From positions 1-34,891 of IMG/VR virus record IMGVR_UViG_3300049825_000124: 34,891 bases of DNA, one strand, 5' to 3'. The DNA comes from a virus. Position 1 is the stretch's first letter, and each line of letters starts with the position of its first letter. The notes beneath the pieces were generated by a model that saw only the letters and a list, made by a program, of their open reading frames with translations, was not told the origin of the DNA and did no database searches. Below, in pieces: positions 3,019 through 34,891 of the stretch. A program made the translations under genes and the position numbers.

Positions 3019-3248
3019 TTTTTAAGCGCCAATGCCTTGCGAGTCGGCTCGCCCTTGGCGTCCTTCATCGGACCCGGCACGCCGCCCATCCTGGCGCAGA
3101 ACGAATCCTTGCGCGGGCCACCCTCGGGCTGCGGTGGCTTCAACCCAGGCTTGCCGGGGTTCGCCGCGTTGTACGAGGCTCGACCTTTGGCGTTCAAGCC
3201 GCCTTCGGGGTTCTTGCCTTCTTTGCGCTGCCAGGCTGGAGTTTTCAT
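3006..3248 (-). CDS. Small basic conserved phage protein (DUF6321-like)
   Basis: The 80-residue product is basic and rich in Gly, Pro and Lys, with the string [20 protein letters not shown] near its N-terminus and [12 protein letters not shown] near residue 50. I recognise this signature from a widespread uncharacterised phage family that I associate with DUF6321. It is usually found in virion modules and has no known activity. The start overlaps the stop of the tail-fibre gene (ATGA) and its end overlaps the cupin gene. The basic character suggests nucleic-acid binding, but that is inference. Confidence 0.7.
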
Positions 3249-4429
3249 GCTGCTGCAATCGTAGTGACGGTGCCCGATGAGCCCCGGTATTTGAGAGCGC
3301 CGGCCTCGACGTAAAGTTGGCCCATGCCTGCCGGGGAGGTTGTCGGCGCGGTGCCGTTGCCAATGCCAATGACCTTGTCGGCATTGGTGCCCCAGACAGC
3401 AGGTTGCCCGTTGTTGAAGCCAATGTTTCCAGTGCTGCTGATCTGCATTCTTGCTACTGGGGGTAGGGTGGTGGTGTTAGTGCCAGTGGCAAACGAGAGC
3501 GCTATAGGGACAGTGTTAGCAGATACCGCGCCATCAACAAATCCTGAGATGTTGGCTAGAAATTGATTTCCTCCAGTAGCCTGACCATCCGCACCGCCAA
3601 ACAATATCCCGCCAAGCGAGTCGTATAGCTGTACCGCAGTTGTAGCCGTAGCAGTTGTGCCACGAGTTTTGAGCAATAAGAAGTTAGGGCCAGAAGCATT
3701 GTCGGAGTAACCGCGAGCAAGCACGCTAGCCGCAAAGGTTGCGGTGTTTCCGTATACTTGAACACCAATTTGGCTTACGGCTGAAGTAGGCCCACCAACC
3801 AGAACTTTGGTTGCAACAGCAACAGTGCCGGTAAGCGCGGGGGAATCCGAGAACACAAGATTGGTACTTGTGGTGCCCGTTGCGCCGGAGGCCGTGTAGC
3901 CTGTGATGTTGTTAAACGATGCAATGCTGGCCGTGATGGCGTTCGTACCGCCGTTGGCCACAGGCAACGCCGTGCCGGAGTAGGCAAGGGCGAGCGTTCC
4001 AGCGGTAGTGATTGGCGATCCGGTGACGCTCAAAAACGCCGGCACGGTGGCTGCTACGCTGGTGACGGTGCCCGTCCCGGTTACCGTTGTCCAAGTCGGG
4101 GCGCTTGCGCCGTTGGATTTCAGAACCTGGCCCGAGGTGCCGACAGCAGAGAATGCGTAGGCGGTGCCGGTGCCATAAGGCACAGCGCCCGCCGTAGGCG
4201 TTGCGGTGGCGTTCGTGCCGCCATTGGCAACCGCCAAGGTGCCAGCAAGCGTAACAGCGCCGGCAGTTGCGGTTGCTGGGGTCAGGCCGGTAGTGCCGCC
4301 AGATACGGTAGTCTGCGCCGAGGTGACCGTCGTCCGTTTGGTGACGCCGCCCTGCACCACTGCGACAAGCTCAGTGCCCGCAAGCGGGGTCGTAGCTGCA
4401 GGAAGGTTTGATATTTTGACGCCGGCCAT
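3245..4429 (-). CDS. Tail fibre / receptor-binding-type protein
   Basis: This 394-residue protein is rich in Gly, Thr, Ala, Ser and Val with a repeated pattern characteristic of trimeric beta-structured tail fibres. The N-terminus ([18 protein letters not shown]) is a common phage fibre start. Two copies of a VANGGTNA unit occur near residues 68 and 155. A central module ([23 protein letters not shown]) is shared with the 236-residue tail protein encoded at 6182-6892. The C-terminus carries [17 protein letters not shown], a typical fibre end. The protein probably forms part of the adsorption apparatus together with the neighbouring tailspike. A Shine-Dalgarno AGGAG lies just upstream of the ATG. 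The central-to-C-terminal coding part (about 3540-3780) is more AT-rich than its flanks. Confidence 0.75.
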
Positions 4430-23682: not shown

Positions 23683-23951
23683 TGCGACAGCACCGCCCCG
23701 ATCACGTCCTAGAGCGAGCAGAGTTTTTGTCACGCGCTCGCTCCATGGCCCGCCGGGGCGTTGCCCTGACGCATAGCAAACTCACACCAGCAGAGGTTCA
23801 GGAGATCCGCCAAGCCAAAGAGAACCGCCTGGACCTGATGGCCCACATTGCCGAGACCTTGAGCAATTCCGCACTGGCGGAAAAGTACGGCGTTCATCCA
23901 CGCAGTATTGAGAAGGTGCTGTCTTATGAAACTTGGAGCCACATCAAATGA
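23682..23951 (+). CDS. Small helix-turn-helix DNA-binding protein
   Basis: This 89-residue basic protein contains KLTPAEVQEIRQAKENRLDL (about 33-52) followed by NSALAEKYGVHPRSIEKVLS (about 62-81) and ETWSHI. This is the helix-turn-helix found in small phage regulators and as the DNA-recognition end of homing-type proteins. No nuclease motif is present. It is coupled at both ends (TAATG before, ATGA after), so it is co-expressed with the nuclease. Confidence 0.7.
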   Translation: MRQHRPDHVLERAEFLSRARSMARRGVALTHSKLTPAEVQEIRQAKENRLDLMAHIAETLSNSALAEKYGVHPRSIEKVLSYETWSHIK

Positions 23952-24916
23952 GTGCAATCCCAATCCCCGACGAGGTCGCTGCAGCCATCGACGCCGCCCA
24001 CGAACGCCAAGTTGAGATGCCCAGGTCGCACCTCGGTGCCAGCCAACTTGGCCACGCCTGTGATAGGTGGCTGTGGCTATCATTCCGTTGGGCGGTGCGC
24101 GAGCCTTTTCCCGGTCGAATCCTGCGCTGGTTTCGGAGGGAGGAGGCCACCATAGCGGCGGATCTCAAGGCGATTGGGATTGAGATACACAGCACCGAGG
24201 GCGAGCAGGCCCGGGTTGACTTTGGCTCGCATGTCAGCGGCAGCCTGGACGGCATCATCGAGTCTGGCGTCCCTAAATCGCCGAAGGCTCGGCACATCTT
24301 CGAGGCCAAGACGCACAGCAAGAAATCGTTTGATGATCTAGTCAAACACGGCGTGGAGAAGTCTAAGCCGGTCCACGCCGCCCAGATGCAGGTCTACATG
24401 GCCGGCACCAACATCGACCGCGCCCTGTACTTTGCAGTCTGCAAAGACGATGACCGCATCTACACCGAGCGCCTGCGCTACAGCCGCACGGAGGCCGAAC
24501 GATTGATAGCTCGCGGGCATCGCATTGCACTGGCCGACAGGATGCCGGAGCCGCTCTCCAACAACCCAGCATGGTACGAGTGCAAGTTCTGCGCTGGGCA
24601 TGACTTCTGCCACGGCAGCAAGAAGACCAAGGAGGTCAACTGCCGAACCTGCGCTCACAGCACGGCGGAACCCTCAACGCCAAACCAAGATGCGCATTGG
24701 ACATGCGCACGATTCGACCGCAGCGTGATCCCGATTGAGACCCAATACACCGGCTGCGACAGCCATGTCCTGCACCCTGACCTAGTGCCCTGGCAGCGCT
24801 TAGACGGGCCGGACGATTGGACGGCGATCTATGTCATTGACGGGAGGGAAGTTGCCAATGGGGAGGGGGATGCTAATGTGTTTGGGTCTCGGGAGTTGCT
24901 GGGGTTGGGGAATTGA
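23948..24916 (+). CDS. Cas4-like PD-(D/E)XK nuclease with Fe-S-type cysteines
   Basis: Starting at the ATG at 23948 (ATGA overlap), the product has 322 residues. PD-(D/E)XK residues are visible as GSLDGI (D101) and FEAKTH (E119, K121), then AAQMQVY as the Gln motif (Q146/Q148). A lone N-terminal Cys (HACDR, C38) and a C-terminal CX2CX5C (C212, C215, C221) give the one-plus-three cysteine arrangement that holds a 4Fe-4S cluster in Cas4 and AddB. A second Cys group follows (C232, C235, C253, C270), perhaps a zinc site. The likely role is an exonuclease making ssDNA ends for the Sak4/SSB pair. There are no Cas1/Cas2 or CRISPR repeats nearby. Confidence 0.82.
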   Translation: MSAIPIPDEVAAAIDAAHERQVEMPRSHLGASQLGHACDRWLWLSFRWAVREPFPGRILRWFRREEATIAADLKAIGIEIHSTEGEQARVDFGSHVSGSLDGIIESGVPKSPKARHIFEAKTHSKKSFDDLVKHGVEKSKPVHAAQMQVYMAGTNIDRALYFAVCKDDDRIYTERLRYSRTEAERLIARGHRIALADRMPEPLSNNPAWYECKFCAGHDFCHGSKKTKEVNCRTCAHSTAEPSTPNQDAHWTCARFDRSVIPIETQYTGCDSHVLHPDLVPWQRLDGPDDWTAIYVIDGREVANGEGDANVFGSRELLGLGN

Positions 24917-25728
24917 ATGAGCTTCATCTATTCGCTGGCGCTGGTGGAGGAATCCTGGCCGGCCAACAACTTGGACACCGATGCGTCTGCGCCGTTGAAT
25001 GGGAGCCCTATGCCCAGGCCGTCCTTGTGTCACGACAAAACGATGGCAGTCTTCCGGCTTTCCCGATTTGGGATGACGTGCAAACCTTTGACGGACGGCC
25101 ATGGCGCGGCATTGTTGACATTGTGGCTGGCGGCTTCCCGTGCCAGGACATTAGCGTTGCCGGAAAAGGCGCAGGCATTGACGGAACCAAGTCAGGAATG
25201 TGGGGGCACATGGCGCGGATCATTGGCGAGGTTCGACCCCGATACGTTTTTGTGGAGAACAGCCCAGCCCTCATTACTCGAGGACTTGGGCGAGTCCTCG
25301 GTGACCTGGCCGCGCTCGGGTATGACTGCCGCTGGACAGTGTTGGGCGCTGCCGATGTTGGGGCGCCGCATCAAAGGGACAGATTCTGGCTTGTGGCCCA
25401 CCATAACGGTGTGTGGCAACTACAACCGCAAAGGTGCCAGCGCTACCAGTGGGGATGGCCTGATAACGGCGCTCAGGACATGGCCAACGCCAATCAGGCG
25501 CGACAGCAGGACGGTGCGGGGGGGGGCAAGAATGAAGAATTCCATAGGGTCGGAACCGCTGATAACGCAAGTAGCGGAATCGGAGCGCCGGACGGATGGC
25601 CGCCTGAACCCGATGTGGGTCGAATGGTTGATGGGGTGGCCTTTGGGATGGACAGACTTAAAGCCCTTGGCAACGGACAAGTCCCAGCCTGCGCAACCGC
25701 CGCTTGGAGAATCCTGAATGCTCCGTGA
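24913..25728 (+). CDS. DNA C5-cytosine methyltransferase (orphan)
   Basis: This 271-residue protein has the C5-MTase motifs in order: I FAGAGGG (7-13), IV GGFPCQDIS with catalytic Cys77, VI ENS (115-117), VIII QRDRFW (154-159) and a motif X-like ALGNGQVP (251-258). The stretch between VIII and X (about 160-245) is short and would be the target-recognition region. No restriction enzyme is adjacent, so it probably protects phage DNA from host restriction. The only start in frame is TTG at 24913, overlapping the nuclease stop (TTGA), and its end overlaps the helicase by 11 bases. A second long frame runs through nearly all of it, and its third-position G+C is lower than in the helicase gene. Confidence 0.88.
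   Translation: MNELHLFAGAGGGILAGQQLGHRCVCAVEWEPYAQAVLVSRQNDGSLPAFPIWDDVQTFDGRPWRGIVDIVAGGFPCQDISVAGKGAGIDGTKSGMWGHMARIIGEVRPRYVFVENSPALITRGLGRVLGDLAALGYDCRWTVLGAADVGAPHQRDRFWLVAHHNGVWQLQPQRCQRYQWGWPDNGAQDMANANQARQQDGAGGGKNEEFHRVGTADNASSGIGAPDGWPPEPDVGRMVDGVAFGMDRLKALGNGQVPACATAAWRILNAP
24917..25717 (+). CDS. Candidate overprinted protein in the +1 frame of the methyltransferase gene
   Basis: A 266-codon frame lies inside the methyltransferase gene. Its ATG directly follows the nuclease stop (24914-24916), and its TGA (25715-25717) directly precedes the helicase ATG. The product starts MSFIYSLALVEESWPANNLD. It contains SRARTLALPEKAQALTEPS, then RFDPDTFLWRTAQPSLLEDL, SVTWPRSGM, GTDSGLWPT, and near the end RLNPMWVEWLMGWPLGWTDL. 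From memory, these Trp/Pro motifs occur in free-standing hypothetical phage proteins near C5-methyltransferases; I could not check this. Long shadow frames also occur elsewhere in this window, so length alone is not proof. The function is unknown. It is listed as a serious candidate, not an established gene. Confidence 0.4.
   Translation: MSFIYSLALVEESWPANNLDTDASAPLNGSPMPRPSLCHDKTMAVFRLSRFGMTCKPLTDGHGAALLTLWLAASRARTLALPEKAQALTEPSQECGGTWRGSLARFDPDTFLWRTAQPSLLEDLGESSVTWPRSGMTAAGQCWALPMLGRRIKGTDSGLWPTITVCGNYNRKGASATSGDGLITALRTWPTPIRRDSRTVRGGARMKNSIGSEPLITQVAESERRTDGRLNPMWVEWLMGWPLGWTDLKPLATDKSQPAQPPLGES
25518..25526 (+). repeat. G9 homopolymer in the double-coded region
   Basis: Nine consecutive G residues lie in the variable region between methyltransferase motifs VIII and X. 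Such tracts are prone to slippage during replication or transcription. A change of one base here would join the front of one overlapping frame to the back of the other. Both frames are open without any shift as the sequence stands. Confidence 0.7.
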
Positions 25729-27319
25729 CTACCAACAACGCACAATAGACCAGCTCTACGCCTGGTTCGATCACAACACCACCGGCAATCCCTGCTTGGT
25801 GCTGCCCACCGGCTCGGGCAAGAGCCACATCATTGCGGCCTTGTGCAAGCGGGTATTGCAGGAGTGGCCTGACAGTCAGATTCTGATGTTAACCCACGTT
25901 AAGGAGTTGATAGAGCAAAACGTGGAGAAGCTGCGCCAGCACTGGCCCGATGTGCCAGTGGGCATCTACAGCGCCGCCATCGGCAAGAAGCAGCTCGGCG
26001 AGCCGATCACTTTTGCAGGCATCCAGTCGGTACGAAAGAAGGCCGCGCTGCTTGGCCACGTTGACCTGGTGCTAGTGGACGAGTGCCACCTAATTGCGCA
26101 CAAGGACCAAGGCGGCTATCGCTCGCTGCTGGCCGACCTGCTGGCGATCAATCCGCGCCTGCGAGTGGTGGGCCTCACCGCAACACCTTACCGTCTCGGC
26201 CACGGAATGATTACCGATGAGCCGGCGATCTTCAAGGAATTGATTGAGCCCACGAACATCCTTGAACTGGTGCGCCTCGGCCACCTAGCGCCGCTACGCT
26301 CCAAGCACACCATTGCCCAGCTGGACACCAGCGGGGTTCACAAGCGTGGCGGGGAATACATTGAGGCCGAGTTGCAGGCGGCAGTGGACACCGCAGACCA
26401 AAACAATTCCGTGGTGCGCGAGATCATTAAGCTCGCCGGAGATCGCAAAGCCTGGCTGGCATTCTGCTCTGGCGTCCAGCACGCCTGGAATATATGCGAC
26501 AAGCTCAACGAGCTCGGCATCGTGGCGGACTGCATCACCGGAGCCACGTCGAAGCGCGAACGCGAGCGCATCATCGGAGAATTCAAGGCGGGCCGCATCC
26601 GCTGCCTGACGAACGCCAATGTCCTGACTACCGGGTTTGATTACCCGGACATTGACCTGATCGCCATGTTGCGCCCCACGATGAGCCCAGGCCTCTACGT
26701 CCAAATGGCTGGCCGGGGTTTGCGGCCCAAGAGCCACACCGATCACTGCCTCGTGCTGGACTTCGCAGCGGTGGTGGCTACGCACGGACCCATCACCCAC
26801 GTCCGACCGCCAAACAAGAAGGGCGACAAGGAGGGAGCCGCGCCAGTGAAGGTATGCGACAACTGCCAGGAGTTATGCGCCCTGGCGGCCCGTGTATGCC
26901 TTGCCTGCGGGCATCCGTTTCCCGAGCCGGAGCTCAAGAAGCTCAAGCTCCAGAACGATGACATTATGGGGCTGGCGGGCAAAGAGATGGAGGTGACCGC
27001 CTGGCGCTGGCGCAAGCATGTCAGCCGAGCCAGCGGGCAGGAGATGTTGATGGTGACGTATTACGGGGCGCTGTCAGACGCGCCAGTGTCCGAATACATG
27101 CCGGTGAACAATCCCGGGTACGCGGGCGAAAAGGCACGGCGGACTGTGGCAACGATTGCCGTGGATGCTGACGTGCTTGTGTCCGACCTCTACAACCCGC
27201 TAGACGTGGTAGCCGACATTCTCTCCTGCGGCGAGCCGCCAAAAATAATTGAGTTCAAAATGGATGGTAAATTTCACAGAGTGTTAAGGAGAAATTGGGA
27301 TGCGCCACAAACAGCCTGA
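25718..27319 (+). CDS. SF2 DEAD/DEAH-type helicase with C-terminal zinc ribbon
   Basis: This 533-residue protein has Walker A PTGSGKS (30-36), DECH box (121-124), motif III GLTATPYR (about 152-159) and motif VI QMAGRGLRP (about 329-337). Together these define an SF2 helicase of the ResIII/UvsW-like group. A zinc-ribbon-like CX2C...CX2C (C380, C383, C394, C397) follows, then ~130 residues of unassigned C-terminal domain. It probably remodels branched DNA or drives annealing in phage recombination/replication, working with the Cas4-like nuclease two genes upstream. A restriction-type helicase is less likely because no specificity or nuclease domain is fused. The ATG directly follows a TGA in another frame and lies inside the last codons of the methyltransferase. 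Confidence 0.87.
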   Translation: MLRDYQQRTIDQLYAWFDHNTTGNPCLVLPTGSGKSHIIAALCKRVLQEWPDSQILMLTHVKELIEQNVEKLRQHWPDVPVGIYSAAIGKKQLGEPITFAGIQSVRKKAALLGHVDLVLVDECHLIAHKDQGGYRSLLADLLAINPRLRVVGLTATPYRLGHGMITDEPAIFKELIEPTNILELVRLGHLAPLRSKHTIAQLDTSGVHKRGGEYIEAELQAAVDTADQNNSVVREIIKLAGDRKAWLAFCSGVQHAWNICDKLNELGIVADCITGATSKRERERIIGEFKAGRIRCLTNANVLTTGFDYPDIDLIAMLRPTMSPGLYVQMAGRGLRPKSHTDHCLVLDFAAVVATHGPITHVRPPNKKGDKEGAAPVKVCDNCQELCALAARVCLACGHPFPEPELKKLKLQNDDIMGLAGKEMEVTAWRWRKHVSRASGQEMLMVTYYGALSDAPVSEYMPVNNPGYAGEKARRTVATIAVDADVLVSDLYNPLDVVADILSCGEPPKIIEFKMDGKFHRVLRRNWDAPQTA

Positions 27320-32896: not shown

Positions 32897-33159
32897 CAGA
32901 TCATCCTTGCGAGCAGTGGCACCGCCCCGCCGGCGCAGGTTGCCAGGGCATCGAACCATTCTACGCCATGCGTAGGTGTTAGGCCGGCTCTGATAGCGCG
33001 TTGGTTGGAGAGCCAGTCGATGACTTCCTTGCCCACTGCTGCAAGAACCACGAGGCCGTAGGCGGCGTCAGGGCGGCGCAGGACGGCTAGGGCGGCTAGG
33101 AAGATCAACGCGCCGTAGATGGCATGGTTGGCTTTGTCGGCGGGGAGTTGGGGCATCAT
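32896..33159 (-). CDS. Small multi-helix membrane protein
   Basis: This 87-residue protein has two or three hydrophobic helices (AIYGALIFLAALAVL; YGLVVLAAVGKEVIDWL; DALATCAGGAVPLLARM). DKANH at the start and GKEVIDW plus HGVEWFDALA are reminiscent of the YfiM/DUF2279-type pattern, a weak match. It follows the large virion-type gene (ATGA). A role in lysis or at the virion-membrane interface is possible. Confidence 0.6.
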   Translation of the reverse strand: MMPQLPADKANHAIYGALIFLAALAVLRRPDAAYGLVVLAAVGKEVIDWLSNQRAIRAGLTPTHGVEWFDALATCAGGAVPLLARMI

Positions 33160-34891
33160 GGCGGCGGGCCTTGGAAGGTTTGGGTGTTGCCAAGCGATAG
33201 TGCTGGAGCAACTGAGCGGCCAGCTGGCGCCGCTGCTGGCGGCTTGGTGTAGTTGATGAACTCGTTGATCTTGGTATTCTTCTTGGCGGCCTGGCGCTTG
33301 CCGTAAAGCTGCTTGCCAATCATTACCAGCGGCACAGGGATTCCAGTCGTTGCCGCCTGCACGCCCATTTCTGTCATGGCCGCTATCATGGTGGACGCCG
33401 TGCCGGACGGGTTGGTTGTCCCCTGCGGGACGGTCAGCACATCCTTAGCCACATCGTTGATCGTGCGGTACTTGTCCGCCAGCTCTTTGCCAAAGATGTA
33501 GTCCAACTTCCCGCTTCGGTCCAGATCGGTGACGATGGAGTTCAGCTTGTGCGAACTGACGTAGGGCAGGCCGTTAATGTCTTTGGTGACGCTCTTGGTG
33601 GCCTCGTCGCGAATCTTCTGCGCTACAAACCCGCGCAACTCGTTGACCATCTGCTGACCTTGCGGGCCGGCTTTGTTCAGCGATGCGAACAATTGCTCTA
33701 CGTCCGAGCGCGGACCCTTGAGCATGGACTTCTCAACCAAATCCTCAATGGCAACCGCCCGCTGAGTCTTGCCAGGCTTCATCGCCAGGATGTTCTTGAT
33801 GACCGGCGTGTTCTCAAACTCGCGCATGTAATCGGCGTTGAGCTTGCGAGCCTGCTGGTACAACGGCCCACCCTTGCCCTCGGTGGCCTTGTCAATCATC
33901 TTGATGACCTGGCGCCCGTAGTACGCATTTGGCGCTGAGTCTTGCGCCAGCGTGCCGGTCATCTTGCGGATTTCCTCAAGGTCATTGACCGAAATGGTGG
34001 TCTTGCCCTCGGTCAATCCTTTGAGCTTTGCCTCTACGCTCTTGAGGACTGGCGCATTGATTGCCTCGGCCTGATGGTCCTTGAGGTAGTTGCGGAAGAC
34101 CGCCACATCCACCGGCTCGGCCATTTGCCCAGCCGCTCGAGCGGCGTCGTATGCCGGGGCAATTGCGCCCTTGATGCCGGCCTGGTACGGCGTCACCACA
34201 TCGGTCAGCGCCTTGCCCAGCTCGCCAGCCCCAACGCCGGTGAGCTCGGCGCCGGTCTTGTTGATGTGAATGTCCAAGTTGTTGATGAGCTTGGCGTTGT
34301 CGCTGGCGTACTTCTCCTGCAATGCTTGGCCGAATACCGGGTCTTTCGCCGTCTCGCGAGCAAAGCGAACATCCGCTGGGTTGCGGGTTGCCTGGTCCTT
34401 AGACAAGGCGATTGGATCGTAGAGTTGCTGCGCCTGCGCAACCCGCCCGGTCTCGGCATCAACCGCAGCAGCGCCGACTGACTGGCGACCGCCAGGCTGC
34501 GCAGCTGGGACGGCCGCCATTGCGGGAGTGGCCGCAGGAACAACGGCGCCAGGCACCGCCGGGGTCGCAGCAACGCCGCCAGCCCTCTGCGCCCGGATGG
34601 CATCCGAGGTAGCTTCAATCCTGGTCTGGAACTGAGTGCGCAGCGCCTCGGCGGTGGCAGAGAAGTCTTGCGCGACAGCGCCGCCTGTCTTGGCCGCTTT
34701 GGCGGCTGCCTTGGCGCCAGCGCCGAGTGCCTTGGCAGCAGGCCCAACAGCACCAACAGCATTCAGCGGATTAAGCAGAATCTCGGACGCGGTGGCCAGC
34801 GCAGGCGATCCCGTCTTCTCCAGCGTGTATTGCCCGATGGCCTCGGCGGGGATGTTGAGCTTGCCCATCACATCGGCGGTGGCCTTGAGGT
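33156..34891 (-). CDS. Large virion/ejection-type protein, N-terminus beyond right edge
   Basis: The frame is open to the right window edge, so the gene is partial. A GTG at 34871 could serve as a start, but coding continues upstream (LKATAD precedes it). At least 577 residues are visible. The sequence has an Ala-rich segment (about 30-60), a Pro/Ala-rich linker (about 95-125), then a long helical charged region (about 140-500) and a Pro-rich tail. LEDLVEKSMLKGPRSDVEQL-like helices and the hydrophobic VPLVMIGKQLYGKRQAAKKN near the end suggest a large internal protein ejected with DNA. It fits the late block that continues at the left edge, and no enzymatic domain is recognised. Confidence 0.7.
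   Translation of the reverse strand, partial: LKATADVMGKLNIPAEAIGQYTLEKTGSPALATASEILLNPLNAVGAVGPAAKALGAGAKAAAKAAKTGGAVAQDFSATAEALRTQFQTRIEATSDAIRAQRAGGVAATPAVPGAVVPAATPAMAAVPAAQPGGRQSVGAAAVDAETGRVAQAQQLYDPIALSKDQATRNPADVRFARETAKDPVFGQALQEKYASDNAKLINNLDIHINKTGAELTGVGAGELGKALTDVVTPYQAGIKGAIAPAYDAARAAGQMAEPVDVAVFRNYLKDHQAEAINAPVLKSVEAKLKGLTEGKTTISVNDLEEIRKMTGTLAQDSAPNAYYGRQVIKMIDKATEGKGGPLYQQARKLNADYMREFENTPVIKNILAMKPGKTQRAVAIEDLVEKSMLKGPRSDVEQLFASLNKAGPQGQQMVNELRGFVAQKIRDEATKSVTKDINGLPYVSSHKLNSIVTDLDRSGKLDYIFGKELADKYRTINDVAKDVLTVPQGTTNPSGTASTMIAAMTEMGVQAATTGIPVPLVMIGKQLYGKRQAAKKNTKINEFINYTKPPAAAPAGRSVAPALSLGNTQTFQGPPP

Follow-up and report, generated by a model that had tools for sequence, protein, structure and literature searches.

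Two overlapping reading frames of a phage locus as probable subunits of one C5-cytosine DNA methyltransferase

Two same-strand reading frames that occupy nearly the same DNA in a viral genome probably encode the two subunits of a single C5-cytosine DNA methyltransferase; we put the probability of this reading at about 0.87. The window analysed here is the whole of a 34,891-base virus record in which head, portal and terminase genes share one strand. One frame (alpha) is that of the C5-methyltransferase. The other (beta) is the +1 frame of alpha on the same strand, and the two are jointly open across ~800 bases, offset by one base as an earlier note on this DNA had described (Table 1). In the proposed enzyme, alpha would supply the catalytic part and beta the small domain, made up of a variable recognition region with motif IX at its end. 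The same note had suggested that a protein family may have been born by overprinting the enzyme, or that the two frames may form one unit. The second suggestion fits the complementary motifs, the fused and frame-swapped relatives and the frame-specific constraint described below. Overprinting is borne out as well, since every beta at the loci examined had an alpha overlapping it.

The locus and its catalytic frame

The overlapping pair sits among replication or recombination genes (a Sak4-like annealase, an SSB-like protein, a Cas4-type exonuclease and a helicase). Its start region reads TTGAATGAG, with the TTG of alpha, the TGA of the upstream exonuclease and the ATG of beta all inside seven bases. 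At 193 of 201 distinct long-beta loci, beta starts exactly 4 nt past the alpha start, usually as NTGAATGAG. The window does contain the two antisense shadow ORFs pointed out earlier (336 and 356 codons), and because of them ORF length alone is no evidence. Elsewhere in the window, minus-strand ORFs of 571, 474 and 394 aa (33156-34871, 323-1747 and 3245-4429) have no PHROG match at E 0.001.

Table 1. Features of the overlapping locus, in window coordinates
Feature	Position	Strand	Basis or remark
Cas4-type exonuclease, upstream neighbour, stop inside dual start	23933..24916	+	phrog_1990, E 3e-87
Dual start: TTG (alpha, 24913), TGA of upstream gene (24914), ATG (beta, 24917)	24913..24919	+	sequence
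Alpha, putative catalytic subunit of C5-cytosine DNA methyltransferase	24913..25728	+	271 aa, TTG start, stop included
Alpha motif I, LFAGAGGG	24928..24951	+	sequence; alignments
Alpha motif IV, GGFPCQDIS (catalytic Cys)	25129..25155	+	G74, P76, C77 and S81 invariant in alignment
Alpha motif VI, ENSPAL	25255..25272	+	E115 and N116 invariant in alignment
Alpha motif VIII, QRDRFWLV	25372..25395	+	R155 and R157 invariant in alignment
Alpha motif X, RLKALGNGQVPACATAAWRIL	25654..25716	+	sequence; helices folded at 248-269 in AlphaFold2 model
Beta, +1-frame subunit, proposed recognition region plus motif IX	24917..25717	+	266 aa, ATG start, stop included
Beta N-terminal extension, residues 1-65, long-beta clade only	24917..25111	+	
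Beta core, residues 66-162, overprints alpha motifs IV-VIII; has WPRSGM and GLWPT	25112..25402	+	common to long and short beta
Beta variable region, residues 163-227, same DNA as alpha disordered linker	25403..25597	+	substitution pattern
Beta probable motif IX, DGRLNPMWVEWLMGWPLGWTDLK	25598..25666	+	canonical HMM, hhalign, fused chains
DNA helicase, downstream neighbour	25718..27319	+	phrog_16, E 1e-95; ATG abuts beta TGA (TGAATG)

Motifs I, IV, VI, VIII and X, which the earlier note had listed for alpha, are visible there; the chain has motif X as well as I-VIII, with catalytic residues of PCQ and ENV type. PF00145 matches it with E 2e-34, but over profile positions 3-167 of 324 only, and phrog_363, labelled 'DNA methyltransferase', matches with E 4e-69. 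In the AlphaFold2 model, pLDDT exceeds 90 for most of residues 1-173 and 250-271, with RLKALGNGQVP of motif X folded, and is below 50 at residues 174-249. Structural alignment with M.HhaI gives a Z of 23.0 over 189 of 327 residues with an rmsd of 2.2. The large domain of alpha superposes on the monomeric PF00145 enzymes M.HhaI and M.HaeIII; unlike these, which hold a recognition domain and motif IX in their single chain, the alpha chain yielded neither motif IX nor a folded recognition domain, the PF00145 match ending at profile position 167 and residues 174-249 being modelled as unfolded. Sequence and predicted structure together identify alpha as a C5-methyltransferase large domain and so as only part of an enzyme.

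Beta is a conserved protein under its own constraint

Beta is a real conserved protein and not a chance shadow frame. The peptides WPRSGM, GLWPT and NPMWVEWLMGWPLGWTDL singled out in the earlier note are present in it, and phrog_1008, labelled 'DNA methyltransferase', matches it (E 2e-25). A simple homology search is insufficient here, since conservation of a protein carries over in part to its shadow frame. In the null model used, the alpha protein was kept, its synonymous codons were shuffled and the +1 frame was scored against the beta model. The +1 frame stayed open in about 1% of shuffles of the window gene and in 0.8% of those over 203 loci; the real frame is open at 203/203, and the third frame has about 15 stops on average. 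(The single '+1 stop' counted for the window is the TGA of the upstream gene, just ahead of the beta ATG.) Real betas score 304 bits with the beta HMM, against a median of 130 bits for the alpha-preserving shuffles. These loci had been retrieved through beta, and retrieval was therefore repeated using alpha alone. Beta was in the +1 frame at 160/160 loci, 80/80 found with the window alpha and 80/80 with a remote Paenibacillus-phage alpha; some contigs recur across searches, and the counts are not all independent.

Beta occurs in two forms, a long one beginning 4 nt past the alpha start and a short one with its own start ~178 nt in. At loci outside the model-building set, the variable segment beat all nulls in 71/72 long-type and 61/64 of the distant short-type loci, and the motif IX segment in 70/72 and 59/64. 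For the N-terminal 65 residues the counts were 72/72 long-type versus 13/64 short-type loci. Short-beta relatives do not have the N-terminal extension: its profile does no better there than the null, and the +1 frame upstream of their beta contains stops. Among close relatives, part of the surplus reflects silent sites inherited in common, an effect to which the positional test and the more distant short-type loci are less exposed.

Constraint switches frame along the gene, resting on alpha over the folded domain and on beta over the disordered linker of alpha. In comparisons of the window with seven close relatives, which have the window as common partner and make the p-value indicative only, divergence is 2.4-5.6% in the overlap versus 10.5-13.3% in the upstream gene, and the overlap changed 2-5 times less than neighbouring genes. 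Alpha third positions are not free in these relatives, taking 50% of changes versus 70%. In the linker DNA, which encodes the beta variable region, changes at alpha positions 1/2/3 number 44/1/0; they are silent in beta and non-silent in alpha. In 79 independent pairs, ~0.6 of the changes over the alpha folded domain fall at alpha third positions, and 0.55 of those over the alpha linker at beta third positions.

The earlier note had listed three findings that would refute its reading, namely no homologues outside methyltransferase overlaps, frequent +1 stops in related genes and no reduction of synonymous change. Only the first was found: the search for homologues without a methyltransferase overlap returned none, the +1 frame is open in the related genes and synonymous change is reduced in the overlap. 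The pattern therefore indicates an obligate overlap, not a spurious frame.

AlphaFold2 models beta alone with low confidence (pLDDT 59). No solved structure was matched by the beta model in Foldseek against the PDB or in VIA-align, and nothing was found when the whole-beta profile was compared with canonical enzymes by hhalign. The top BFVD matches include a phage protein labelled SAM-dependent methyltransferase, at low TM-scores. The label 'recognition domain' accordingly derives from its position, its variability and its complementarity.

Motif IX, rearranged relatives and distribution

Canonical motif IX follows the pattern L-T-P-R-E...L-x-G-F-P. The C-terminus of beta, LNPMWVEWLMGWPLGWTDL, resembles it, and the consensus of the beta element is LNPxWVEWLMGxPxGWT. 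In a one-chain relative (L450), PF00145 aligns over positions 2-321 of 324, the element stands directly before motif X, and the canonical HMM places its LNPDWVEWLMGYPISWTD on motif IX. At three loci (L245, L372 and L449) the beta chain carries IX and then X in one chain, and hhalign of such natural IX-X chains against canonical enzymes gives a probability of 85% (E 6.5e-6). Three plasmid enzymes (L448, L452 and L453) run from motifs I-VIII through X to a C-terminal part that closes with the beta element (hhalign probability 78.6, E 1.7e-5), which is the order of alpha then beta fused in one chain; this fused type was barely found among viral contigs.

The distribution of beta is complementary to that of motif IX. 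In bacterial genomes sampled by PF00145 regardless of beta, chains without the C-terminal part of PF00145 have beta in +1 in 6/6 cases, versus 0/33 for complete chains apart from one weak partial match (Fisher p 3e-7); the count excludes five chains with a two-piece PF00145 match or a contig-end cut, and one genome was reached via a beta match, which favours the six. Because the one-chain relatives, the plasmid fusions and the complementary distribution support the identity, the C-terminal element of beta is most likely motif IX, as judged from short segments plus architecture.

The plasmid enzymes are Vibrio and Alteromonas methyltransferases (L448 904-2148, L452 301-1533, L453 283-1542) with a beta-like motif IX at the C-terminus. 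A published screen for natural permutations took only motif X before motif I (PMC5944983), and for that reason the order I-VIII, X, IX at the end would escape it. Motifs IX and X have moved to another frame or chain at L245 3970-5167, L372 1986-3165, L449 769-2296, L450 1192-2217 and L429 1947-3031, with I-VIII, IX and X each still present once per locus. At L028 3001-4398 and L059 3001-4437, beta ORFs of 466 and 479 aa carry the motif IX element and then motif X in the beta frame, and L028 has an additional beta C-terminus in another frame. In several viral contigs (L268-L273) alpha and beta are both interrupted in the variable middle part; their frames rule out non-overlapping pairs, as alpha and beta overlap on both sides. 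At L008, L022, L034, L155, L220 and L262 a single indel-like shift is seen after which both continue in new frames, and these could be sequencing errors or real recombinants. One alpha-type ORF (L466 1428-3425) has 666 aa, far above the usual length, and may be fused to another domain.

Searching the +1 protein among viral proteins, as had been proposed, yielded relatives on at least 571 viral contigs. Beta relatives also occur in 98 phage records, at no fewer than 210 loci in bacterial and archaeal genomes, and in 14/369 genomes of the class of a Pseudomonas. E. coli PT62 and LP5-1 carry a relative of the pair, and the phage groups that have it include those of Paenibacillus and Mycobacterium smegmatis. 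The earlier note had mentioned a family of free-standing hypothetical phage proteins near C5-methyltransferases. The family is indeed large, conserved and always tied to these enzymes, but its free-standing members did not materialize: none was found in 170 loci, 104 more, the 160 alpha-found loci or the bacterial genomes, and every record opened that was annotated as a 'hypothetical protein' or 'DNA methyltransferase' of the beta kind proved to be the +1 frame of an overlapping alpha. Most phage records opened annotate one frame only, alpha or beta; Paenibacillus phages annotate both as methyltransferases. PHROG 1008 (beta) and PHROG 363 (alpha) share the label 'DNA methyltransferase', with nothing to mark them as two frames that overlap at a single locus.

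In a quick tree built on the catalytic domain, a branch with support 98 separates complete enzymes from all beta-bearing and fused ones. The fused chains sit on the beta side, and the long-beta group is nested within it (support 98). Because of this split, a single origin of the alpha-beta pair is not contradicted, and the pair apparently had one ancient origin followed by wide spread. Among individual phages, Microcystis phage Mel-JY01 has an S-adenosylmethionine synthase gene shortly upstream of the alpha-beta locus (L084 275-1477), and Salmonella phage S9-5 has an adenine methylase gene immediately ahead of the locus, overlapping its start (L082 1407-2000).

A proposed two-subunit enzyme, its rivals and its meaning

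M.EcoHK31I, like M.EaeI, is a two-subunit C5-methyltransferase with the site YGGCCR, and the gene of its 176-aa small subunit lies inside the large-subunit gene in another frame. According to PMC3404938, citing Lee, Kam and Shaw (1995), its large subunit has motifs I-VIII and X and its small subunit motif IX. That paper places the predicted TRD of M.EcoHK31I in the large subunit and notes that detached C5-methyltransferase fragments complement one another. By this published motif description, the window locus is alike in that alpha has I-VIII and X without IX and beta has IX, and in the nesting of one gene in the other in another frame. It differs in that beta has 266 aa, starts 4 nt after alpha, spans almost the whole gene and lies in a phage recombination-replication gene run. 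M.AquI likewise has catalytic motifs I-VIII in one chain and the recognition part and IX in the other; its small subunit bears motif X (PMC3404938), which in the window belongs to alpha, and the relatives L245, L372 and L449 have the AquI order, with X and IX together on the beta chain. The best reading is that the alpha-beta system works like M.EcoHK31I, by analogy with its published description. A literature search on overlapping methyltransferases of phages found none among the papers searched, which is not proof of absence. What appears new is that the frames start together and overlap almost totally, that the arrangement is so widespread in phages and bacteria, that its distribution complements that of motif IX, and that frame-swapped and fused forms exist in nature.

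On this model, alpha and beta would be translated off one message from the paired TTG and ATG starts. Because the TTG, TGA and ATG are clustered, the starts may share one ribosome landing via termination-reinitiation at the TGA of the upstream gene. The two proteins would then assemble as a heterodimer in which beta determines the target sequence, and the complex would methylate cytosines in a set sequence, plausibly shielding phage DNA from host restriction. Assembly, activity and target are what we infer from the family, with M.EcoHK31I in support.

An unlikely variant of the two-subunit enzyme takes motif IX alone from beta and leaves target recognition in the alpha linker between VIII and X. 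This is the published assignment for M.EcoHK31I (PMC3404938) and the canonical place of a TRD; the alpha linker is, however, predicted to be unfolded, and its substitutions respect beta, both in the close relatives (44/1/0) and in the 79 pairs (beta third-position share 0.55). It is less likely still that the enzyme consists of alpha alone and that beta, though encoded in the same DNA, does something else, for example as a regulator, an anti-restriction or a toxin-like protein. Although 'DNA methyltransferase' labels are all that databases offer on beta function, the motif complementarity (6/6 versus 0/33), the one-chain IX-X relatives and the alpha-beta fusions all speak against a separate job, as does the fact that beta never occurred without alpha among the loci examined.

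Motifs swapped between frames in L245, L372, L429, L449 and L450 could suggest that a programmed frameshift joins the frames in a single chain and that a separate beta is never made. We consider this very improbable, since the beta ATG is conserved 4 nt past the alpha start (193/201 distinct long-beta loci), short betas have their own start ~178 nt in, and one chain could not yield both the motif X of alpha and a complete beta. The idea that the +1 frame simply follows from composition and alpha conservation draws some support from the median of 130 bits that alpha-preserving shuffles still reach against the beta model. Its probability is nonetheless negligible in view of the openness of the frame, the segment surplus, the beta-dominated linker constraint and the motif IX evidence; a chance shadow frame is excluded by the shuffle null, the alpha-found loci, the complementarity with motif IX, the constraint and the segment tests.

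How a two-subunit, overprinted enzyme would have arisen is a more tentative matter. The recognition region of beta may have originated de novo as an overprint of the catalytic motifs, once and early, and have spread through phages and many bacterial phyla, with the alpha linker kept only because its DNA encodes beta; we hold this possible, at somewhat less than even odds. If true, specificity and catalytic modules are locked in one stretch of DNA and co-inherited.

Outside viruses, to our knowledge, few cases are documented in which the genes of two conserved proteins overlap over their full length on the same strand. The present overlap occurs at hundreds of loci, and its frame-swapped, fused and complete single-chain relatives are internal controls that make origin and mechanism testable. 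It also implies systematic mis-annotation, as the locus is usually annotated as a single gene. Because most records show one frame, the probable specificity subunit goes unseen in restriction-modification surveys, and alpha cloned alone would probably give an inactive enzyme. Finally, the locus is a clean natural example in which to measure how two frames divide selection between them.
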